A DNA stretch of 9,073 nucleotides from a bacterium. Lineage in GTDB: Bacteria; Blakebacterota; Blakebacteria; Blakebacterales; Blakebacteraceae. Below, one piece after another: positions 1,456 to 9,073 of the stretch. Location: the NCBI GenBank assembly GCA_025774205.1, contig JALGWK010000137.1, positions 1 to 9,073 of the forward strand, read 5' to 3'. Numbering within the stretch: position 1 is the stretch's first letter; each line of letters opens with the position of its first letter. The notes beneath the pieces are model-generated. The model had not been told where the DNA came from. It ran no database searches and was given only the letters and a program-made list of their open reading frames with translations. The position numbers were made by a program, and so were the translations under genes.

Positions 1456-1521
1456 ATGAATGAGAATACACAGGAAACCGCGTATCCGCGGATAGACCTC
1501 AAGAAGGGCCATGATCGTCGC
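1456..1521 (+). pseudogene. 5' remnant of the methyltransferase gene (true N-terminus, other frame)
   Basis: From the ATG at 1456 this frame reads MNENTQETAYPRIDLKKGHDRR. The last part, PRIDLKKGHDRR, resembles the start of COG1092/RlmI-type methyltransferases, where a 'L(K/A)KGRE+' segment leads into the conserved HPWVFSG(E/A)I of the PUA domain. After about 1521 the frame loses similarity. The recognisable protein resumes in the next frame at about 1523 with RTPGELVRVHDSKGRFLG. The HPWVFSG block is absent from all frames. An apparent loss of about 60 nt (n = 2 mod 3) at 1516-1526 explains both the missing block and the frame change. No clear Shine-Dalgarno sequence precedes this ATG. The assignment rests on a short match. 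Confidence 0.6.
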
Positions 1522-2515
1522 CCGCACGCCGGGAGAACTGGTCCGGGTGCACGACTCGAAGGGTCGTTTCCTGGGGACCGGGTACGTCAATCCCCACTCC
1601 CTGATAGCCGTCAGACTGCTCAGGCGCAGTGAGGGCCCGATCGATCAGGCCTTCCTTGAGGCCAGGATCGATGCTGCCCTGGCGCTTCGTGATCGTCTCT
1701 ATCCTGATGAGGATGCCGTCCGTCTTATCTACTCGGAGAGCGACGGACTGCCCGGTCTGGTGGTGGATCGGTACCGCGACCACCTGGCTGTGCAGGTAAC
1801 GACCGCAGGCATGGAACTCCTTCTGCCCGGGCTCCTCGATCTGCTCGAAACGCGAACCGGCTCCCGCTGCGTGATCGCCCGGAACGATGTCGGCATCCGC
1901 CGTCTGGAAGGACTCGACGAACGGGTGGAAATCCTCCGTGGTGATCCCGATGAGGAACTGGAGATCGAGTACGAGGGTCTCCGCCTGAGGGTCGATCTGC
2001 CGGGCGGCCAGAAGACCGGACTCTTCCTGGATCAGCGCGACAACCAGCGAACCCTGCTCCCCTGGTGTTCCACGGGAGAGGTGCTCGACTGCTACTGTTA
2101 CCAGGGGACCTGGTCGCTCCTGGCTCTCCGGAACGGCGCCTCGCGGGTGATCGGTATCGACAGCTCAGCCGACGCCCTCACGCTGGCTGCCGTCCATGCC
2201 GGGTTCGACCTCGTGATCGTCGATCCTCCGGCCTTCGTGAGGAGCCGGAAGCACCTCAAAGCAGGTCTCCGCGGTTATCTCGACCTGAACCGGAAAGCTC
2301 TCGATGTGGTCGCGCCCGGCGGTACCCTGGTGACCTGTTCCTGCTCACATCATGTTCGACCGGAGGTCTTTCTCGATACACTCTCTCACGCGGCGGGGCT
2401 GGCCGGCCGGCACGTCCGGGTCCTCGCCGCGCTCGGGCAGAGCCGCGATCATCCTCCCCTTCTGGCCGCTCCCGAAACCGCCTACCTGAAGTGCCTGGCC
2501 CTCCATGTGGAGTAA
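1511..2515 (+). CDS. RlmI-like class I SAM-dependent rRNA methyltransferase (COG1092), internally deleted
   Basis: The family transfers a methyl group from S-adenosylmethionine to a base of 23S rRNA (E. coli RlmI makes m5C1962). The 334-residue frame has the second half of a PUA RNA-binding domain (GELVRVHDSKGRFLG..Y.NPHSLIAVRLL), the linker motif ESDGLPGLVVDRY, the region GGQKTGLFLDQRDN, the SAM-binding motif I region VLDCYCYQGTWSLLAL (from residue 191), DPPAF at 238-242 and CSCSHH around 276-281. Two parts are missing. The PUA start lies in another frame upstream (1456-1521). Inside the Rossmann domain, SSADALTLAAVHA runs straight into GFDLVIVDPPAF at about 2195-2203, without the usual 30-35 residues (the 'RNAxLNG...F...DAF..L' helix and strand that carry the acidic SAM contact). 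The ATG at 1511 is therefore only the first in-frame start; an in-frame TAG at 1493 blocks extension. Translated as it stands, the protein would probably not bind SAM. It ends 9 nt before nfo and probably shared its transcript. Confidence 0.85.
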   Translation: MIVARTPGELVRVHDSKGRFLGTGYVNPHSLIAVRLLRRSEGPIDQAFLEARIDAALALRDRLYPDEDAVRLIYSESDGLPGLVVDRYRDHLAVQVTTAGMELLLPGLLDLLETRTGSRCVIARNDVGIRRLEGLDERVEILRGDPDEELEIEYEGLRLRVDLPGGQKTGLFLDQRDNQRTLLPWCSTGEVLDCYCYQGTWSLLALRNGASRVIGIDSSADALTLAAVHAGFDLVIVDPPAFVRSRKHLKAGLRGYLDLNRKALDVVAPGGTLVTCSCSHHVRPEVFLDTLSHAAGLAGRHVRVLAALGQSRDHPPLLAAPETAYLKCLALHVE

Positions 2516-2524
2516 GACCGCACG

Positions 2525-3463
2525 GTGATCCGGCAGGTGACGGAGGAACCGGGACCTGCCGTCGAAGCCACCGGCGGGCTCCTGCTGGGCAGCCACATGT
2601 CGGTCGCCGGCGGCGTCTCGCTCGCCTTCGGTCGCGCGGAGGAATACGGCTGCGCGGTCGCGCAGATCTTTGTGAAGAACAACAACCGCTGGCGGGGAAC
2701 CCGGCTGACGACCGGCGAGATCGACGCCTTCTGGGCCGAGCGTGAACGCACCGGGATCTGGCCGGTGATCGCCCACAACACCTACCTGGTGAACCTGGCG
2801 TCGGCTCATCCCGCCATCAGGGAGCGCTCCATAGCCTGTACCATCGACGAACTGAATCGCTGCCAGGCGCTCGGCCTGTCCGGACTGGTGATCCATCCAG
2901 GTGCCCACGGAGGGGCGGGAGTCGAGAAAGGGATTCGTCGGATGACCGCCGCGCTCCACCGGGTCATTGACCGGACGCCGGAAGTCGGGACCAGGATTCT
3001 GCTCGAAACAACGGCCGGGCAGGGCACCACCCTCGGACGGAGCGCCGGGGAACTGGCGCTGATGCTGGAATCGATCGACATTCCCGAACGGACCGGGATC
3101 TGCCTCGACAGCTGTCACATTTTCGCGGCCGGGTATGAACTGCGTGACAGTGAGGGTTATGAGCGGACGATGCATGAATTCGACGCCCTGGTCGGATTGA
3201 AAACGATCAAGGCCATCCATCTGAATGACAGCAAAAAACCCCTGGGATCGTTCAGGGACCGCCACGAGCACATCGGTGAGGGAGAGATCGGTGAGGCCGG
3301 ATTCCGCAACCTCATGAGAGGGGGAAGCCGACCGGAAGAACCTGGCGCGCCTGCGCCGCCTGGCACGACCATAGTCAGGTCAAAACCGCGGCATTCAAGC
3401 GGCGCCATGGATATTCGACAAGAACATCTGGAACATCTCCGGAGGGTCTTCCGTACCATGTGA
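2525..3463 (+). CDS. nfo: Endonuclease IV (apurinic/apyrimidinic endonuclease), C-terminus frame-shifted
   Basis: Endonuclease IV cleaves DNA 5' of abasic sites in base excision repair, using three zinc ions in a TIM barrel. The likely start is the GTG at 2525, because the first family block, LLGSHMSVAGG, precedes the first usable ATG. Eight of the nine zinc ligands are recognisable: H84 (AHNTY), H124 (HPGAH), E161 (ETTAGQG), D195 and H198 (CLDSCHIFAAGYE), H232 (HLNDSK), D245 and H247 (DRHEHIGEGEIG). The ninth, the glutamate of the usual 'P.ILET' block (E261 in E. coli), is missing. After FRNLM, ending at residue 264, similarity stops; the remaining 48 residues to 3463 are an out-of-frame tail. 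The genuine tail is in another frame at 3318-3374. The open frame therefore encodes a protein that should lack repair activity, unless the loss is an assembly error. It lies 9 nt behind the methyltransferase gene. Confidence 0.9.
   Translation: MIRQVTEEPGPAVEATGGLLLGSHMSVAGGVSLAFGRAEEYGCAVAQIFVKNNNRWRGTRLTTGEIDAFWAERERTGIWPVIAHNTYLVNLASAHPAIRERSIACTIDELNRCQALGLSGLVIHPGAHGGAGVEKGIRRMTAALHRVIDRTPEVGTRILLETTAGQGTTLGRSAGELALMLESIDIPERTGICLDSCHIFAAGYELRDSEGYERTMHEFDALVGLKTIKAIHLNDSKKPLGSFRDRHEHIGEGEIGEAGFRNLMRGGSRPEEPGAPAPPGTTIVRSKPRHSSGAMDIRQEHLEHLRRVFRTM
3318..3374 (+). pseudogene. nfo: Displaced genuine C-terminus of endonuclease IV
   Basis: In the frame ending at the TAG 3372-3374 the sequence reads EGEADRKNLARLRRLARP and stops. 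This fits the end of bacterial endonuclease IV proteins, which close with 'LETPKG....D..NL..LR.L'. The upstream gene is in a different frame up to FRNLM (3302-3316). A missing segment of about 50 nt (n = 2 mod 3), encoding roughly 'DPRF..VP.ILETPK', would join the two parts in frame. That segment would carry the final zinc ligand. The true stop of the ancestral gene is thus 3372-3374, and the open frame beyond it is accidental. Confidence 0.8.
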
Positions 3464-3508: not shown

Positions 3509-4759
3509 GTGGACATAGCGCGAGAGCCCAGAAAGAAAACGGGCCGATACATCTGGATCTCAGTTGGCGTGATGGCGGTGATCGCCGTCACCCTGTGGCT
3601 GCGCGGGCTTGAACCCGCCGCACCGACGGTGGATGGCGCGATCATCTGGACCGGTACCGTCGAGGAGGGCGACATGTACCGCAAGGTACGCGGAACCGGG
3701 AACCTGCGTCCGAAGAACCTGCTGTTTATCACGGCCACCACCGGCGGCAAGGTCGAGGAGATCTTTGCCGAACCGGGACTCGAGGTTGAACCGGAGACAG
3801 TCCTCCTCATCCTCAGCAATCCCGACGTGGAACTCGATGCCCTCCAGGCCCAGCAGGTGCTCCTCGCCGCCGAGGCCAATTACGAGAATCTCAGGGGCAA
3901 CCTCGAGACCAGCCTGCTCAACCAGCAGGTCACCGTTGCCCGAACCCGGAACCAGCTCCGGGACGCGCAGCGCCGTCTTGATTCCTACAACGAGGTGAAG
4001 GAGGAAGTCTCCCGCCTCGACCTGGAACGAACCCAGGACGAGGTCGAAGAACTCACCTCCCGCATGGAGATCGAACAGCGCACCATGGAGCTGCTCGAAG
4101 CAAGCATGGGGCGGACCCTGAGCGCCGAGCGGGAGGCGCTGGAACGGCGCCGCGACCTGGCCGATTTCCAGCAGGACCGGGTCAACGCGCTCCACGTGAA
4201 AGCGGAATCGCAGGGGATCCTTCGTGAGCTGCAGCCTGAGAAGGGGCAGTGGATCAATGCCGGACAGCCCCTGGGTGTCATCATCCAGCCGGGTGACCTC
4301 GAGGCGGTGGTCGGCATTCCTGAAGTGCAGGCAAAGGACGTCCGGGTCGGACAGGAAGCTATCGTCGATACACGGTCCACCGGCGGGCGGGAGATCCCGG
4401 CGCGGGTTTCCCGTATCAATCCTTCAGCCTCAGGCGGTCTGGTGACCGTCGATATCGAAATCCTGGGTGAACTCCCCAATGGCGCTCTGGCTGACCAGAG
4501 CGTGGAGGGGATCATCACCATCGAACGACTCGAAAATGTGCTTTACATGAGCCGGCCGACGATCGGTCAGGCCAACAGCAGGGTAGGGATGTTCAAGATC
4601 GTTGATGACGGCCAGTACGCCGTCCGTGTCACGGTTGAGATCGGACAGACCTCGGTGAATAATATCGAGATCCGGGGTGGATTGGAGCGGGGGGATGTAG
4701 TGATCCTCTCAGATATGGCCCGTTGGGATGAATTCGACCGAGTGAGGATCCGGAGGTAA
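3509..4759 (+). CDS. Periplasmic adaptor (HlyD/MacA-type membrane fusion protein)
   Basis: This 416-residue protein should link an inner-membrane ABC transporter to an outer-membrane channel. It has a basic N-terminus (REPRKKTGR), one membrane anchor at about 14-31, the first half of a lipoyl domain (about 47-110), a long charged, Q/L/E-rich alpha-helical hairpin (about 112-235), the second lipoyl half (HVKAESQGILRELQPEKGQW), a beta-barrel domain (about 270-345, with IPEVQAKDVRVGQEA) and a membrane-proximal domain ending in GGLERGDVVILSDM. Length and domain order look complete. The start is a GTG at 3509, five nt after AAGGA; later ATGs would cut the anchor. No lipobox cysteine is seen, so it is a membrane-anchored rather than a lipoprotein adaptor. 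It is followed by two ATPases and a TolC protein, which fixes its role as the adaptor of this pump. The substrate cannot be inferred. Confidence 0.92.
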   Translation: MDIAREPRKKTGRYIWISVGVMAVIAVTLWLRGLEPAAPTVDGAIIWTGTVEEGDMYRKVRGTGNLRPKNLLFITATTGGKVEEIFAEPGLEVEPETVLLILSNPDVELDALQAQQVLLAAEANYENLRGNLETSLLNQQVTVARTRNQLRDAQRRLDSYNEVKEEVSRLDLERTQDEVEELTSRMEIEQRTMELLEASMGRTLSAEREALERRRDLADFQQDRVNALHVKAESQGILRELQPEKGQWINAGQPLGVIIQPGDLEAVVGIPEVQAKDVRVGQEAIVDTRSTGGREIPARVSRINPSASGGLVTVDIEILGELPNGALADQSVEGIITIERLENVLYMSRPTIGQANSRVGMFKIVDDGQYAVRVTVEIGQTSVNNIEIRGGLERGDVVILSDMARWDEFDRVRIRR

Positions 4760-4767
4760 ACCGGATC
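4747..4767 (+). promoter_or_regulatory. Hairpin across the adaptor stop codon
   Basis: GATCCGG at 4747-4753 and CCGGATC at 4761-4767 form a perfect 7-bp stem with a 7-nt loop. The TAA stop codon (4757-4759) is inside the loop. No T run follows, so a normal intrinsic terminator is unlikely. An mRNA-stabilising or processing structure between adaptor and ATPase is possible. Confidence 0.4.
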
Positions 4768-4864
4768 GAATGTGTTCTGGATCAGAAGTCCGTTGCATCA
4801 CCGAGGAGATCGAATGACGACGGATTTGTGACTCAGGACACGTAATAATCTGGAAGGGAAGAGA

Positions 4865-5603
<739 letters not shown>

Positions 5604-5605
<2 letters not shown>

Positions 5606-5638
5606 GATCCGCTCCCTGAACCGGGACGACCGGATCCT
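5604..5638 (+). promoter_or_regulatory. Hairpin at the stop codon of the first ATPase gene
   Basis: AGGATCCG at 5604-5611 pairs perfectly with CGGATCCT at 5631-5638. Inside it, TCCC 5613-5616 pairs with GGGA 5623-5626 around a 6-nt loop. The TAG stop (5603-5605) overlaps the left arm. The arms resemble those of the hairpin at 4747-4767. There is no T run behind it. Confidence 0.42.
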
Positions 5639-5775
5639 TACCGACACACTCTCCTCATTTCATGTGGCGCGGCGGCATCGCCGCCGCGTTGCGCGCGGGG
5701 TTTACCGGACAGGCCGGAACGGCGGCGCTGCTTCCGGTCTTCGACAAGGTATGACATGACGGCAGGTGGGAGCCG
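5606..5775 (+). other. 170-nt non-coding gap between the two ATPase genes
   Basis: The gap is unusually long for two genes of one locus. It contains two hairpins (5604-5638 and 5664-5692). The only short frame is an ATG at 5662 with a stop at 5752-5754 (30 codons). It has no ribosome binding site and mostly translates the GC-rich hairpin, so I do not call it a gene. No fragment of a permease is recognisable in any forward frame. GGTGGGAG at 5765-5772 is the ribosome binding site of the second ATPase. Confidence 0.55.
5664..5692 (+). promoter_or_regulatory. Very GC-rich hairpin in the ATPase-ATPase gap
   Basis: CGCGGCGGC at 5668-5676 and GCCGCCGCG at 5680-5688 form a perfect 9-bp stem with loop ATC. 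In RNA, G.U and G-C pairs (5664-5667 with 5689-5692) could extend it to 13 pairs. A structure this stable between two genes may act as a pause, a barrier to 3'-5' decay or a partial terminator. It lacks the T run of an intrinsic terminator. Confidence 0.5.
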
Positions 5776-6450
5776 ATGATCAGAACAAGGGAACTCGAGA
5801 AATTCTATCAGGCCGGGCCGACCAGGACGTACGTGCTCAGGCAGGTCGACCTGGATGTCGGGGAGGGTGAGTTCATCACGGTCATGGGACCTTCAGGGTC
5901 CGGGAAGACTACCATGCTGAGCATCATCGGCATGCTTGACGGTGAGTGGAACGGTGAATTCACGTTTTTCGACCACCCCGTCCATGCCATGAAACCGAAG
6001 GAGCGGGCCGCGCTCAACAAGCAGTACATAGGTTTCGTTTTCCAGCAGTATCACCTTCTCGAAAGCCTGACCGTCTACGAGAACCTCGAGATTCCGCTCT
6101 CCTACCGGAACATCAAGCAGTCGAAACGGGCCGGTATGGTTGCCGATCTCCTCGATCAGTTTCAGATCGTGGGGAAGAAGGACCTCTATCCCAGCCAGCT
6201 CTCCGGTGGTCAGCAGCAGCTGGTGGCCGTCGCCAGGGCGGTGGTAGCCAGCCCGAAACTGATCCTGGCCGACGAACCGACAGGGAATCTCCATTCACGG
6301 CAGGGTAAGGAGGTCATGGACCTCCTGAAATCACTGAACGATGACGGCACCACGATCATCCAGGTCACCCACAACGAGAAATGGGCTGACTATGGAGACC
6401 GGATCATCAATCTCTTCGATGGCTGGATCGTGGACGAACCTCAGACCTGA
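5776..6450 (+). CDS. ABC transporter ATPase, MacB/LolD-like with variant D-loop (second)
   Basis: This 224-residue ATPase is related to the preceding one but clearly distinct. Walker A is GPSGSGKT at 38-45, the Q-loop glutamine is 90 (FVFQQYHLLESLTVYENLEIPLSYR), the signature LSGGQ is at 142-146, Walker B has D166 and E167, and the H-loop is H199 (QVTHN). Two positions differ from the usual pattern. The residue after LSGGQQQ is leucine (149), where arginine is normal. The D-loop reads GNLHS, with His173 in place of the usual aspartate. I recall LSGGQQQL and NLHS occurring together in ATPases next to ADOP-type permeases, so this looks like a subfamily trait rather than damage. The start at 5776 follows GGTGGGAG. 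With the first ATPase it may form a heterodimer, or each may serve a different permease. TolC follows 32 nt after its stop. Confidence 0.93.
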   Translation: MIRTRELEKFYQAGPTRTYVLRQVDLDVGEGEFITVMGPSGSGKTTMLSIIGMLDGEWNGEFTFFDHPVHAMKPKERAALNKQYIGFVFQQYHLLESLTVYENLEIPLSYRNIKQSKRAGMVADLLDQFQIVGKKDLYPSQLSGGQQQLVAVARAVVASPKLILADEPTGNLHSRQGKEVMDLLKSLNDDGTTIIQVTHNEKWADYGDRIINLFDGWIVDEPQT

Positions 6451-6482
6451 TAGTGATCTGAATGGCCCACAGGGGGGCTGAC

Positions 6483-8153
6483 ATGATGAGATCGGCAGAG
6501 CGGGAATCCCGGATGATATCGATCGCGAGGAGGATCACCGAGGGCGCGATTTCGCTCCTGGTCGCGGGCATGGTCATGCCCGTGATATCGGCGCAGCAGA
6601 CCGGGATCGAGCTGGGACCATCGGGCGGCATCTTCACGCAGGCCGACGCCGATATGGTTCTGGATCTCGAGGGCGCGGTCGACCTGGCCCTGGACAGATC
6701 ATTCTCGATCTACACCCTGAAGCAGCAGTACCTGCAGACCAACTACCTCCTGGAGAACGCCAAGCGGCAGCTCAGAACCCGGATTGACTGGAACTCAACC
6801 CTGCCCGGCATCAACCAGATGATCACCCCTGAACTGCTGAGTACCGGAGGCGGATTCCAGGAACTCGTGTTCCTCCGTGACAGTTCGAAGTGGCTGCACG
6901 GTGAAGTCAATATCATCCAGCCCCTGATCACGAACGGGCGGATCGTCTTATCCTCGGGGATCGTCGGCTTCGACGCTGACCGGGCCCTCCCCGCGCCCCT
7001 GGCCGATGTAGCCGCCCGCTCGGTCCAGCCCTCGATCGGCGTGCAGTTCAACCAGCCCCTCTTCCAGTACAACGAAGTGAGGGGAGCCCTGCAGAATGCC
7101 AGACTCTCACTTGAAGGACTGCAGCTCAGCTACACTGAAGACGAGCTGCAGCGGATCAACCAGGTCTCGCGGCAGTTCTACGTGCTCTTCGCCCAGCAGA
7201 CGGCGCTCGGTCTGGCCGACACCCTCTATCAGCAGAGCGAGCGGAACTACCAGTCGGGAGTCAACCGGTACAACGCCGGACTGCTGGCCGAGACCGATGT
7301 CATGCAGCTCAATGTGACCCGGATGAACGACCTCGACGCGCTGGAGAGCGCCCGCAACATTCTGGAACAGCAGCAGTTCGCCTTCAACCGCCTGGTCGGG
7401 CTGGAGCTCGACCTGCAGGTCTGGGCCGACGCGAGTATCGATTACGTACCGATCGAGGTCGATCTCGACCGGGCCCTTCAACTCGCCTTCGAGAGACGCT
7501 CCGACATGCGGCGCTCCGAGATCGAACAGGAACTGTTCCAGCTGCAGCTGAAGCGGCAGAAGAGCATCGGCCGTCCCGACCTGCAGCTCAATGTCGGATA
7601 CGACGTCACCGGAAACTCGAGCCTGTCGGCCACCCCCGATGACGACTGGCAGTTCCACTTCGACGAGTCGCTGAATCCCGATAACCGCAGCCCCAATACG
7701 AACATTACCCTTACACTGGCCATCCCGCTCTTCGACTGGGGCCGGAATGCCTCCCTGGTGGAGAGACTGGCGTCGATGATCCAGGTTCAGGATCGGCAGG
7801 TCGACGAGGTCCGGCAGGAACTGATCCGGATGGTGACCGACCGGGTGCGGGCCGTCGAGAGCGCCATGCGGCGATTCGCCATCCAGGAGGCGAACGTCCA
7901 GGTGGCGGAGACCTCCTACGGTTTCACCCAGCGGCGGTTCGACCGGGGAGAGATCACCTTCACCGAACTCGCCCAGGCGCAGGATCTGCTCGCCCGGACC
8001 CGTACGAACCACCTGACCGCGCTCATCAATTATGAGATGGCCAAGGCCGACCTGAAGGAGATAACCCTCTGGGACTGGGAGACAAACCAGCCCGCAGCCC
8101 AGAGGACGCAGCCCCCGGAGCCGTTCGAACGGAACCGACGCCGGGACCGTTAG
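6483..8153 (+). CDS. TolC-family outer membrane efflux protein
   Basis: This 556-residue protein should form the trimeric outer-membrane channel of the pump. The N-terminus has a basic region and a hydrophobic stretch (about residues 18-37, ending PVISA) that looks like a signal peptide. Two outer-membrane efflux repeats follow (about 55-290 and 300-540). They contain long helical segments and amphipathic strands such as NIIQPLITNGRIVLSSGI and 'TLTLAIPLFDWGRNASL'. The end of repeat two, 'FDRGEITFTELAQAQDLL....T....L.NYEMAKADL', is characteristic. The charged tail ending in NRRRDR is probably periplasmic. I chose the ATG at 6483 (6486 is equally possible) because AGGGGGG at 6471-6477 is correctly placed for it; an earlier in-frame ATG at 6462 lacks a site. 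Length suits the family and I see no internal loss. It belongs with the adaptor and ATPases upstream. Confidence 0.92.
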   Translation: MMRSAERESRMISIARRITEGAISLLVAGMVMPVISAQQTGIELGPSGGIFTQADADMVLDLEGAVDLALDRSFSIYTLKQQYLQTNYLLENAKRQLRTRIDWNSTLPGINQMITPELLSTGGGFQELVFLRDSSKWLHGEVNIIQPLITNGRIVLSSGIVGFDADRALPAPLADVAARSVQPSIGVQFNQPLFQYNEVRGALQNARLSLEGLQLSYTEDELQRINQVSRQFYVLFAQQTALGLADTLYQQSERNYQSGVNRYNAGLLAETDVMQLNVTRMNDLDALESARNILEQQQFAFNRLVGLELDLQVWADASIDYVPIEVDLDRALQLAFERRSDMRRSEIEQELFQLQLKRQKSIGRPDLQLNVGYDVTGNSSLSATPDDDWQFHFDESLNPDNRSPNTNITLTLAIPLFDWGRNASLVERLASMIQVQDRQVDEVRQELIRMVTDRVRAVESAMRRFAIQEANVQVAETSYGFTQRRFDRGEITFTELAQAQDLLARTRTNHLTALINYEMAKADLKEITLWDWETNQPAAQRTQPPEPFERNRRRDR

Positions 8154-8262
8154 CGCCCTGTCACGCACCAACCGTCGCATTCGAGCGGCGCTGTATCTCG
8201 ACTGACTCTCCTTGGTGTCCTGTCGCATGATGGGCATCAGCCCGAAAGGAGTCTCACGTCAC
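8154..8262 (+). other. Gap between tolC-like gene and permease
   Basis: These 109 nt carry the second copy of the stem-loop repeat (8170-8193). AGCGCC at 8152-8157, overlapping the TolC stop, can pair with GGCGCT at 8187-8192, so an alternative larger fold exists. AAAGGA at 8245-8250 is the likely ribosome binding site for the permease ATG at 8263, though its 12-nt spacing is long. No promoter is convincing. Confidence 0.45.
8170..8193 (+). repeat. Dispersed stem-loop repeat, copy 2
   Basis: AACCGTCGCATTCGAGCGGC, continuing GCT, matches 3384-3407 closely. Positions 8173-8178 (CGTCGC) pair with 8185-8190 (GCGGCG), including one T.G wobble, around loop ATTCGA. The stem is better paired here than in copy 1. 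Both copies sit 10-17 nt after a gene end, here the TolC stop at 8151-8153. Confidence 0.42.
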
Positions 8263-8550
8263 ATGGATTCCCTGCTCTTCGATCTCCGCTTCGGTTTCAG
8301 ATCACTCTTCCGGAAACCGGAAATCACGGTGACAGCCGTCCTCGCGCTGGGACTGGGCATCGGCGCCTGTACCGCCATTTTCAGCGTGGTGAACACTGTT
8401 CTCCTCCGACCACTGCCCTTCGACCGACCCGACCTGATCATCTCCATCTCATCGCCCGCAGAGAACACCCTGTCGACTTCCACCTCACCGGCCAACTTCC
8501 TCGACTGGCAGGCTGAGGCAAACACCATCCCGGACCTTTCAGCCTGGTGA
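8263..8550 (+). pseudogene. ADOP/MacB-type ABC permease, N-terminal fragment
   Basis: The first 95 codons are a typical start of an FtsX-fold permease of the acidobacterial duplicated orphan permease type: MDSLLFDLRFGFRSLFRKPE, then a membrane segment of about 20 residues (VTAVLALGLGIGACTAIFSVVN, roughly 21-42), then TVLLRPLPF. The periplasmic MacB-PCD region follows, with TSPANFLDWQAEANTIPDLSAW. The frame then stops at TGA 8548-8550. In relatives about 45 more residues lead to an acidic 'EED..' turn and VVVLSH. Here VVVLSH appears one frame over only a few codons later. A loss of roughly 130-140 nt (n = 2 mod 3) at about 8545-8552 accounts for both. The start at 8263 follows AAAGGA. As read, only one membrane helix and a stub would be made. 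It would have been the inner-membrane partner of the ATPases. Confidence 0.82.
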
Positions 8551-9073
8551 GTCTGATGAGGACGCCGTGGTGGTGCTCAGCCACCGGATCTGGCAGTCGC
8601 GGTTCGGCGCCGATCAGGGGGTCGTCGGTGAGACGGTCGTCCTGAATGATCGCTCCCACACGATCCTCGGGGTGATGCCGCCGGGATTCAACTTCACCGC
8701 CGACTACGATCTCTGGGTGAGGGCGTACGAATATGGCGTTCCGGCCCCGAGCTTCTCGCTGGGGGAGAACTGGAACGAGATCCGCGGTCTCGGGTATTTC
8801 CGGGTCGTGGGACGTCTGCGGGAGGGGGCCGCGATCGGGCAGGCCGACGCCCAGCTGTCGGCCATCGCCACCCGCCTGCGGGAGGAGTTCCCCGACAGCA
8901 ACTGCAACGACGATGCCGGGGCAATCTCCTACAGTGAGGTCCTGACCGGGGATATCCGGGTGGACCTGCTCCTCCTCATGGGGGCCGTCGCCCTGGTGCT
9001 CCTCATCGCCTGCGCCAACGTGGCCAACCTGCTCATGTCGAGGGCCCTCGGTCGTCAGCTCGAGATATCGGTG
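8549..9073 (+). pseudogene. ADOP/MacB-type ABC permease, continuation in shifted frame, cut by window edge
   Basis: This frame opens with GESDEDAVVVLSHRIWQSRFG and continues the periplasmic domain (GVVGETVVLNDRSHTILGVMPPGF...DLWV), the 'GYFRVVGRLREGA' strand, the 'ADAQLSAIATRL' helix and the start of the FtsX membrane domain, LLLLMGAVALVLLIACANVANLLMSRALGR. No start codon or ribosome binding site suits an independent gene, so it is the other half of the gene beginning at 8263. The frame is open to the window end; a complete ADOP permease would need several hundred more residues. The identity of the family is clear. Whether the break is biological is not. Confidence 0.82.

Follow-up and report, generated by a model that had tools for sequence, protein, structure and literature searches.

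The question raised by this locus is whether an endonuclease IV gene (nfo) that lacks the segment with its last zinc ligand is broken in the organism or only in the assembled sequence. The window, which is the whole stretch of 9,073 nt analyzed here, is contig C408 of a metagenome-assembled genome (MAG) of 3.09 Mb in 527 contigs, with a completeness of 85.85% and a contamination of 4.84%; its fragmentation suggests that the assembly was made from short reads. It was compared with the MAG of a relative from the same genus (G001), in which the nfo locus is L026 (also L248, G001:C320; public record JALGVQ010000043), and with two further relatives from the same family, one of which is labelled Candidatus Latescibacterota. 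The nfo region of the window contains the following features.

2525..3317, + strand: endonuclease IV (nfo) body, in frame to ...GFRNLM (TIGR00587, 253 bits; protein 82% identical to that of the same-genus relative)
3317..3318, + strand: junction of a 47-nt loss (nucleotide alignment to L026; E261 position from the alignment with PDB entry 1qtw)
3318..3374, + strand: true nfo C-terminal tail EGEADRKNLARLRRLARP with its stop codon, in a different frame from the body (translation)

The open reading frame from 2525 to 3463 scored well above the TIGR00587 cut-off of 129.65 bits and covered positions 2 to 248 of the 279 profile positions, which places it in the Nfo family. In the nucleotide alignment the window had a single gap versus L026, of exactly 47 nt (2 mod 3), and the letters flanking the junction were CGCAACCTCATGA on the left and GAGGGGGAAGCCGACC on the right. 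The protein of the relative ends with FRNIM, NDRRLRDIPKILETPK and EGDADVVNLARLRHLAVL before the stop, and the same arrangement was present in the two other relatives of the family. In the window, FRNLM is followed by the tail in another frame, with 12 of 18 residues equal to those of the relative's tail. The earlier note had placed the real tail out of frame and had put the loss at about 50 nt (n = 2 mod 3), and the alignment bore out both statements. The frame of the nfo body remains open to 3463, and the extension from 3318 to 3463 gave no family match in the profile search or in the alignment with E. coli Nfo.

The block NDRRLRDIPKILETPK, missing in the window, includes the glutamate that aligned with E261 of E. 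coli Nfo. By alignment this residue of the ILET motif corresponds to position 261 of PDB entry 1qtw, as the earlier note had proposed; PDB entry 2nqh has glutamine there. Glu261 of E. coli Nfo has been described as a zinc-bound residue activating the water (PMC13113976). The window protein aligned with E. coli Nfo no further than residue 249, and the ILET block was found in none of the six frames between about 3301 and 3482, again in agreement with what had been claimed. Among 80 nfo loci fetched, the tail pattern was located in 62 and the other 18 were left unscored; the Glu-Thr pair was kept in all 62 family members scored (53 by script and 9 by eye). The contig thus lacks the C-terminal segment that carries the last zinc ligand, an absence attributed to missing sequence. 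A programmed frameshift or a translational bypass was rejected because the lost block occurs in no frame.

Two further genes on the same contig were interrupted in a similar way.

1456..1520, + strand: true N-terminus MNENTQETAYPRIDLKKGHDRR of an RlmI-like 23S rRNA methyltransferase, severed from the remainder (alignment to L026; sequence reading)
1520..1526, + strand: methyltransferase junction at which a net 56 nt (2 mod 3) are lost (gaps of 49 + 7 nt versus L026)
1526..2515, + strand: remainder of the RlmI-like methyltransferase (L026 alignment; NCBIfam matches in two stretches)
8212..8550, + strand: N-terminal fragment of an ADOP-family permease, stop after ...PDLSAW (TIGR03434, profile positions 2-93)
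8567..9073, + strand: continuation of the ADOP-family permease in a different frame (TIGR03434, profile positions 145-306)

The methyltransferase does not really start at the ATG at 1511, which appears as a start only because the frame is broken. The same gene had an in-frame loss of 84 nt at 2203/2204, between the motifs GIDSSADALTLAA and DLVIVDPPAF. The permease match breaks off at profile position 93 and resumes at 145, with a stop codon and a shift of frame separating the two parts; about 130 nt are probably missing at 8546-8566, a size estimated from the profile gap and not from a same-genus sequence. With three losses in 7.2 kb aligned, versus about 0.45 expected, the window contig lies above the average (P about 0.01); this counts against a fault of the assembly as the cause, although the contig was chosen post hoc.

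The region from 3509 to 8153 is an exporter operon with an HlyD-type adaptor, two ABC ATPases and a TolC-like protein, and the ADOP permease fragments follow it. The best NCBIfam match of the ABC ATPases was DarD, below its cut-off. In the relative's MAG the second ABC ATPase copy (window 5776-6450) shifts frame near its end, at about 16357 of L248. A short intergenic repeat (approximately CCCTGTCACGCAACAACCGTCGCATTCGAGCGGCGCCGTATC), which looks like a REP-type element, was present in both MAGs and lies at 8160-8215 and 3380-3415 of the window; the 3391 copy, which closely follows nfo, is degenerate and could match by coincidence. Other copies were seen in L120, L186, L234 and L238 of the window's MAG and in L140, L151, L153, L154 and L165 of the relative. 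A strict pattern gave 6 copies in the 444 kb and 5 copies in the 661 kb sampled, respectively, and BLAST gave more.

The comparison of the two MAGs was made on sampled contigs and comprised 31 collinear chains with 151 kb of the window's MAG. Of the fetched contigs below about 3 kb, most consisted of N and were left out, and a gap of 28 N remains in one fetched contig. In the aligned 151 kb the window's MAG had 12 blunt losses of 37, 43, 47, 56, 58, 60, 69, 78, 84, 91, 102 and 127 nt, most of them in coding sequence; the one of 58 nt, in L123, is possibly intergenic. Eight of these passed a filter of at least 70% identity in both 30-nt flanks and a gap of at least 40 nt, as did three losses in the relative's MAG (65, 76 and 70 nt, all frame-breaking), while four further losses in the window's MAG (37-91 nt) were removed by this filter, on flank identity or on size, and were recognized by visual inspection of the alignments. 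The count excludes in-frame gaps of smaller size, e.g., 24 nt in the TolC signal region and 33 nt in carbamoyl-phosphate synthase, since these may be natural. Among the genes affected were ornithine aminotransferase, which lacks the segment SGAEAVETAFKAARK (written also GAEAVETAFKAARKWGEKVK), a YoaA/DinG-type helicase and an ABC transporter ATPase. Five of the 12 losses in the window's MAG were in frame; as one third would be expected by chance (P = 0.37), there was no sign of frame selection. The losses were scattered over contigs regardless of frame or gene function, as expected for local assembly errors, and long chains free of losses also exist (e.g., L277/L163 and L186/L162). In the sampled part of the window's MAG a blunt loss in this size range (37-127 nt) thus recurs roughly every 12-13 kb and disrupts or shortens conserved genes.

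Short in-frame tandem duplications (QLIRLGGQQLIRLGG, and LQYLRGHRGRSDP twice) were observed in L250 (G000:C440) near 357 and 209 and in L251 (G000:C429) near 5016. They sit near the ends of these two contigs, which share end sequence, and may likewise reflect local assembly error in the window's MAG.

At the junctions tested, the homology with the relative's lost segment was only 0-2 nt, and the lost segments had neither unusual GC richness nor a clear excess of hairpins or folding compared with random stretches. A deletion mediated by repeats or hairpins was rejected on these grounds. The differences between the nfo body and that of the relative were distributed over codon positions 1, 2 and 3 as 35/22/120, and those of the methyltransferase as 19/19/87 and 12/4/44; this bias is the mark of purifying selection on both genes. 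Either the breaks arose extremely recently or the organism itself does not carry them.

It is concluded, with a probability of roughly 0.87, that nfo is an ordinary endonuclease IV gene which is incomplete in the contig through missing sequence at a blunt assembly join. Missing sequence was favoured because other genes and contigs as well as the relative's MAG show the same pattern. The assembly of short metagenomic reads would have dropped pieces of about 40-130 nt at many places and joined the two sides bluntly, and one such join would have taken 47 nt from nfo and broken the frame; the responsible step of the assembler can be guessed as, e.g., the closing of a scaffold gap with its sequence left out. 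Both the cell and the raw reads presumably still contain the lost bases. The suggestions of the earlier note that a single loss (n = 2 mod 3) explains all observations and that the contig may be missing bases therefore stood, whereas its alternative of a dead AP endonuclease did not, in view of the similar losses elsewhere in the contig, in the MAG and in the MAG of the relative. A real and very recent deletion of 47 nt, which inactivated nfo and left abasic sites to other enzymes such as the lyase activity of endonuclease III, would fit the clean loss of the family block from every frame, and an endonuclease III gene (nth) is present in the MAG. It is nevertheless unlikely, since other conserved genes were struck similarly throughout this MAG, since the relative's MAG also has such losses and since body and tail of nfo show no decay; in addition, the incomplete MAG yielded no other AP endonuclease, so that a genuine loss would be costly. 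The earlier note had suggested looking for a second nfo or xthA, and neither these nor another contig with an intact block were found in the 85.85% complete MAG. Its only PF03372 protein was rejected as a substitute XthA, as it carries what looks like a lipoprotein signal and does not match the XthA equivalog; the relative's MAG has two PF03372 proteins. As the MAG is only 86% complete, the missing AP endonucleases carry little weight, and a genuine loss would become still more improbable if nfo were the sole enzyme of this kind. That a free-living bacterium of this lineage has really and recently lost its only AP endonuclease, with endonuclease III and other lyases repairing its abasic sites, is highly improbable.

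Blunt losses on many contigs could also be produced by a truly decaying genome, in which many real pseudogenes arise through small deletions. However, the same genes are conserved at the protein level with a strong third-position bias, the junctions lack homology, housekeeping genes were struck, and the events are mostly single and clean in frames that are otherwise open, which makes decay slightly less probable still. The least credible explanation was that the lineage naturally makes a shortened, working endonuclease IV that ends in the frame-2 tail to 3463. The open frame would allow such a protein, but the extension matches no family and contains the normal tail out of frame. A natural ending after FRNLM with the frame-2 tail had been proposed for comparison with close homologues; the three closest relatives carry the normal tail, and no homologue ending like the window was seen among the relatives examined.

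A break of nfo as a real feature of the organism is not supported, and missing sequence in the metagenome assembly is most likely. Since blunt losses of this kind occur in other conserved genes of the contig, across this MAG and also in that of the relative, the loss in nfo says nothing about the organism. The finding matters mainly as a warning about gene breaks derived from MAGs. At the rate of blunt losses observed, apparent pseudogenes, missing active-site blocks and odd C-termini from this MAG should not be taken as biology without support from reads, and the same caution applies to a lesser degree to the sister MAG.

The window protein shares the motifs DSCHIFAAGY, HLNDSK and DRHEHIGEGEIG with the Nfo family (TIGR00587; PF01261); what differs is that the contig lacks the last-zinc-ligand segment and has the tail out of frame. 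Localized assembly errors giving incomplete or incorrect protein-coding genes are known in uncurated MAGs (Chen et al. 2020, PMC7111523). The window probably likewise has localized faults at joins that harm protein-coding genes, which may be collapsed scaffold gaps or errors of another type.
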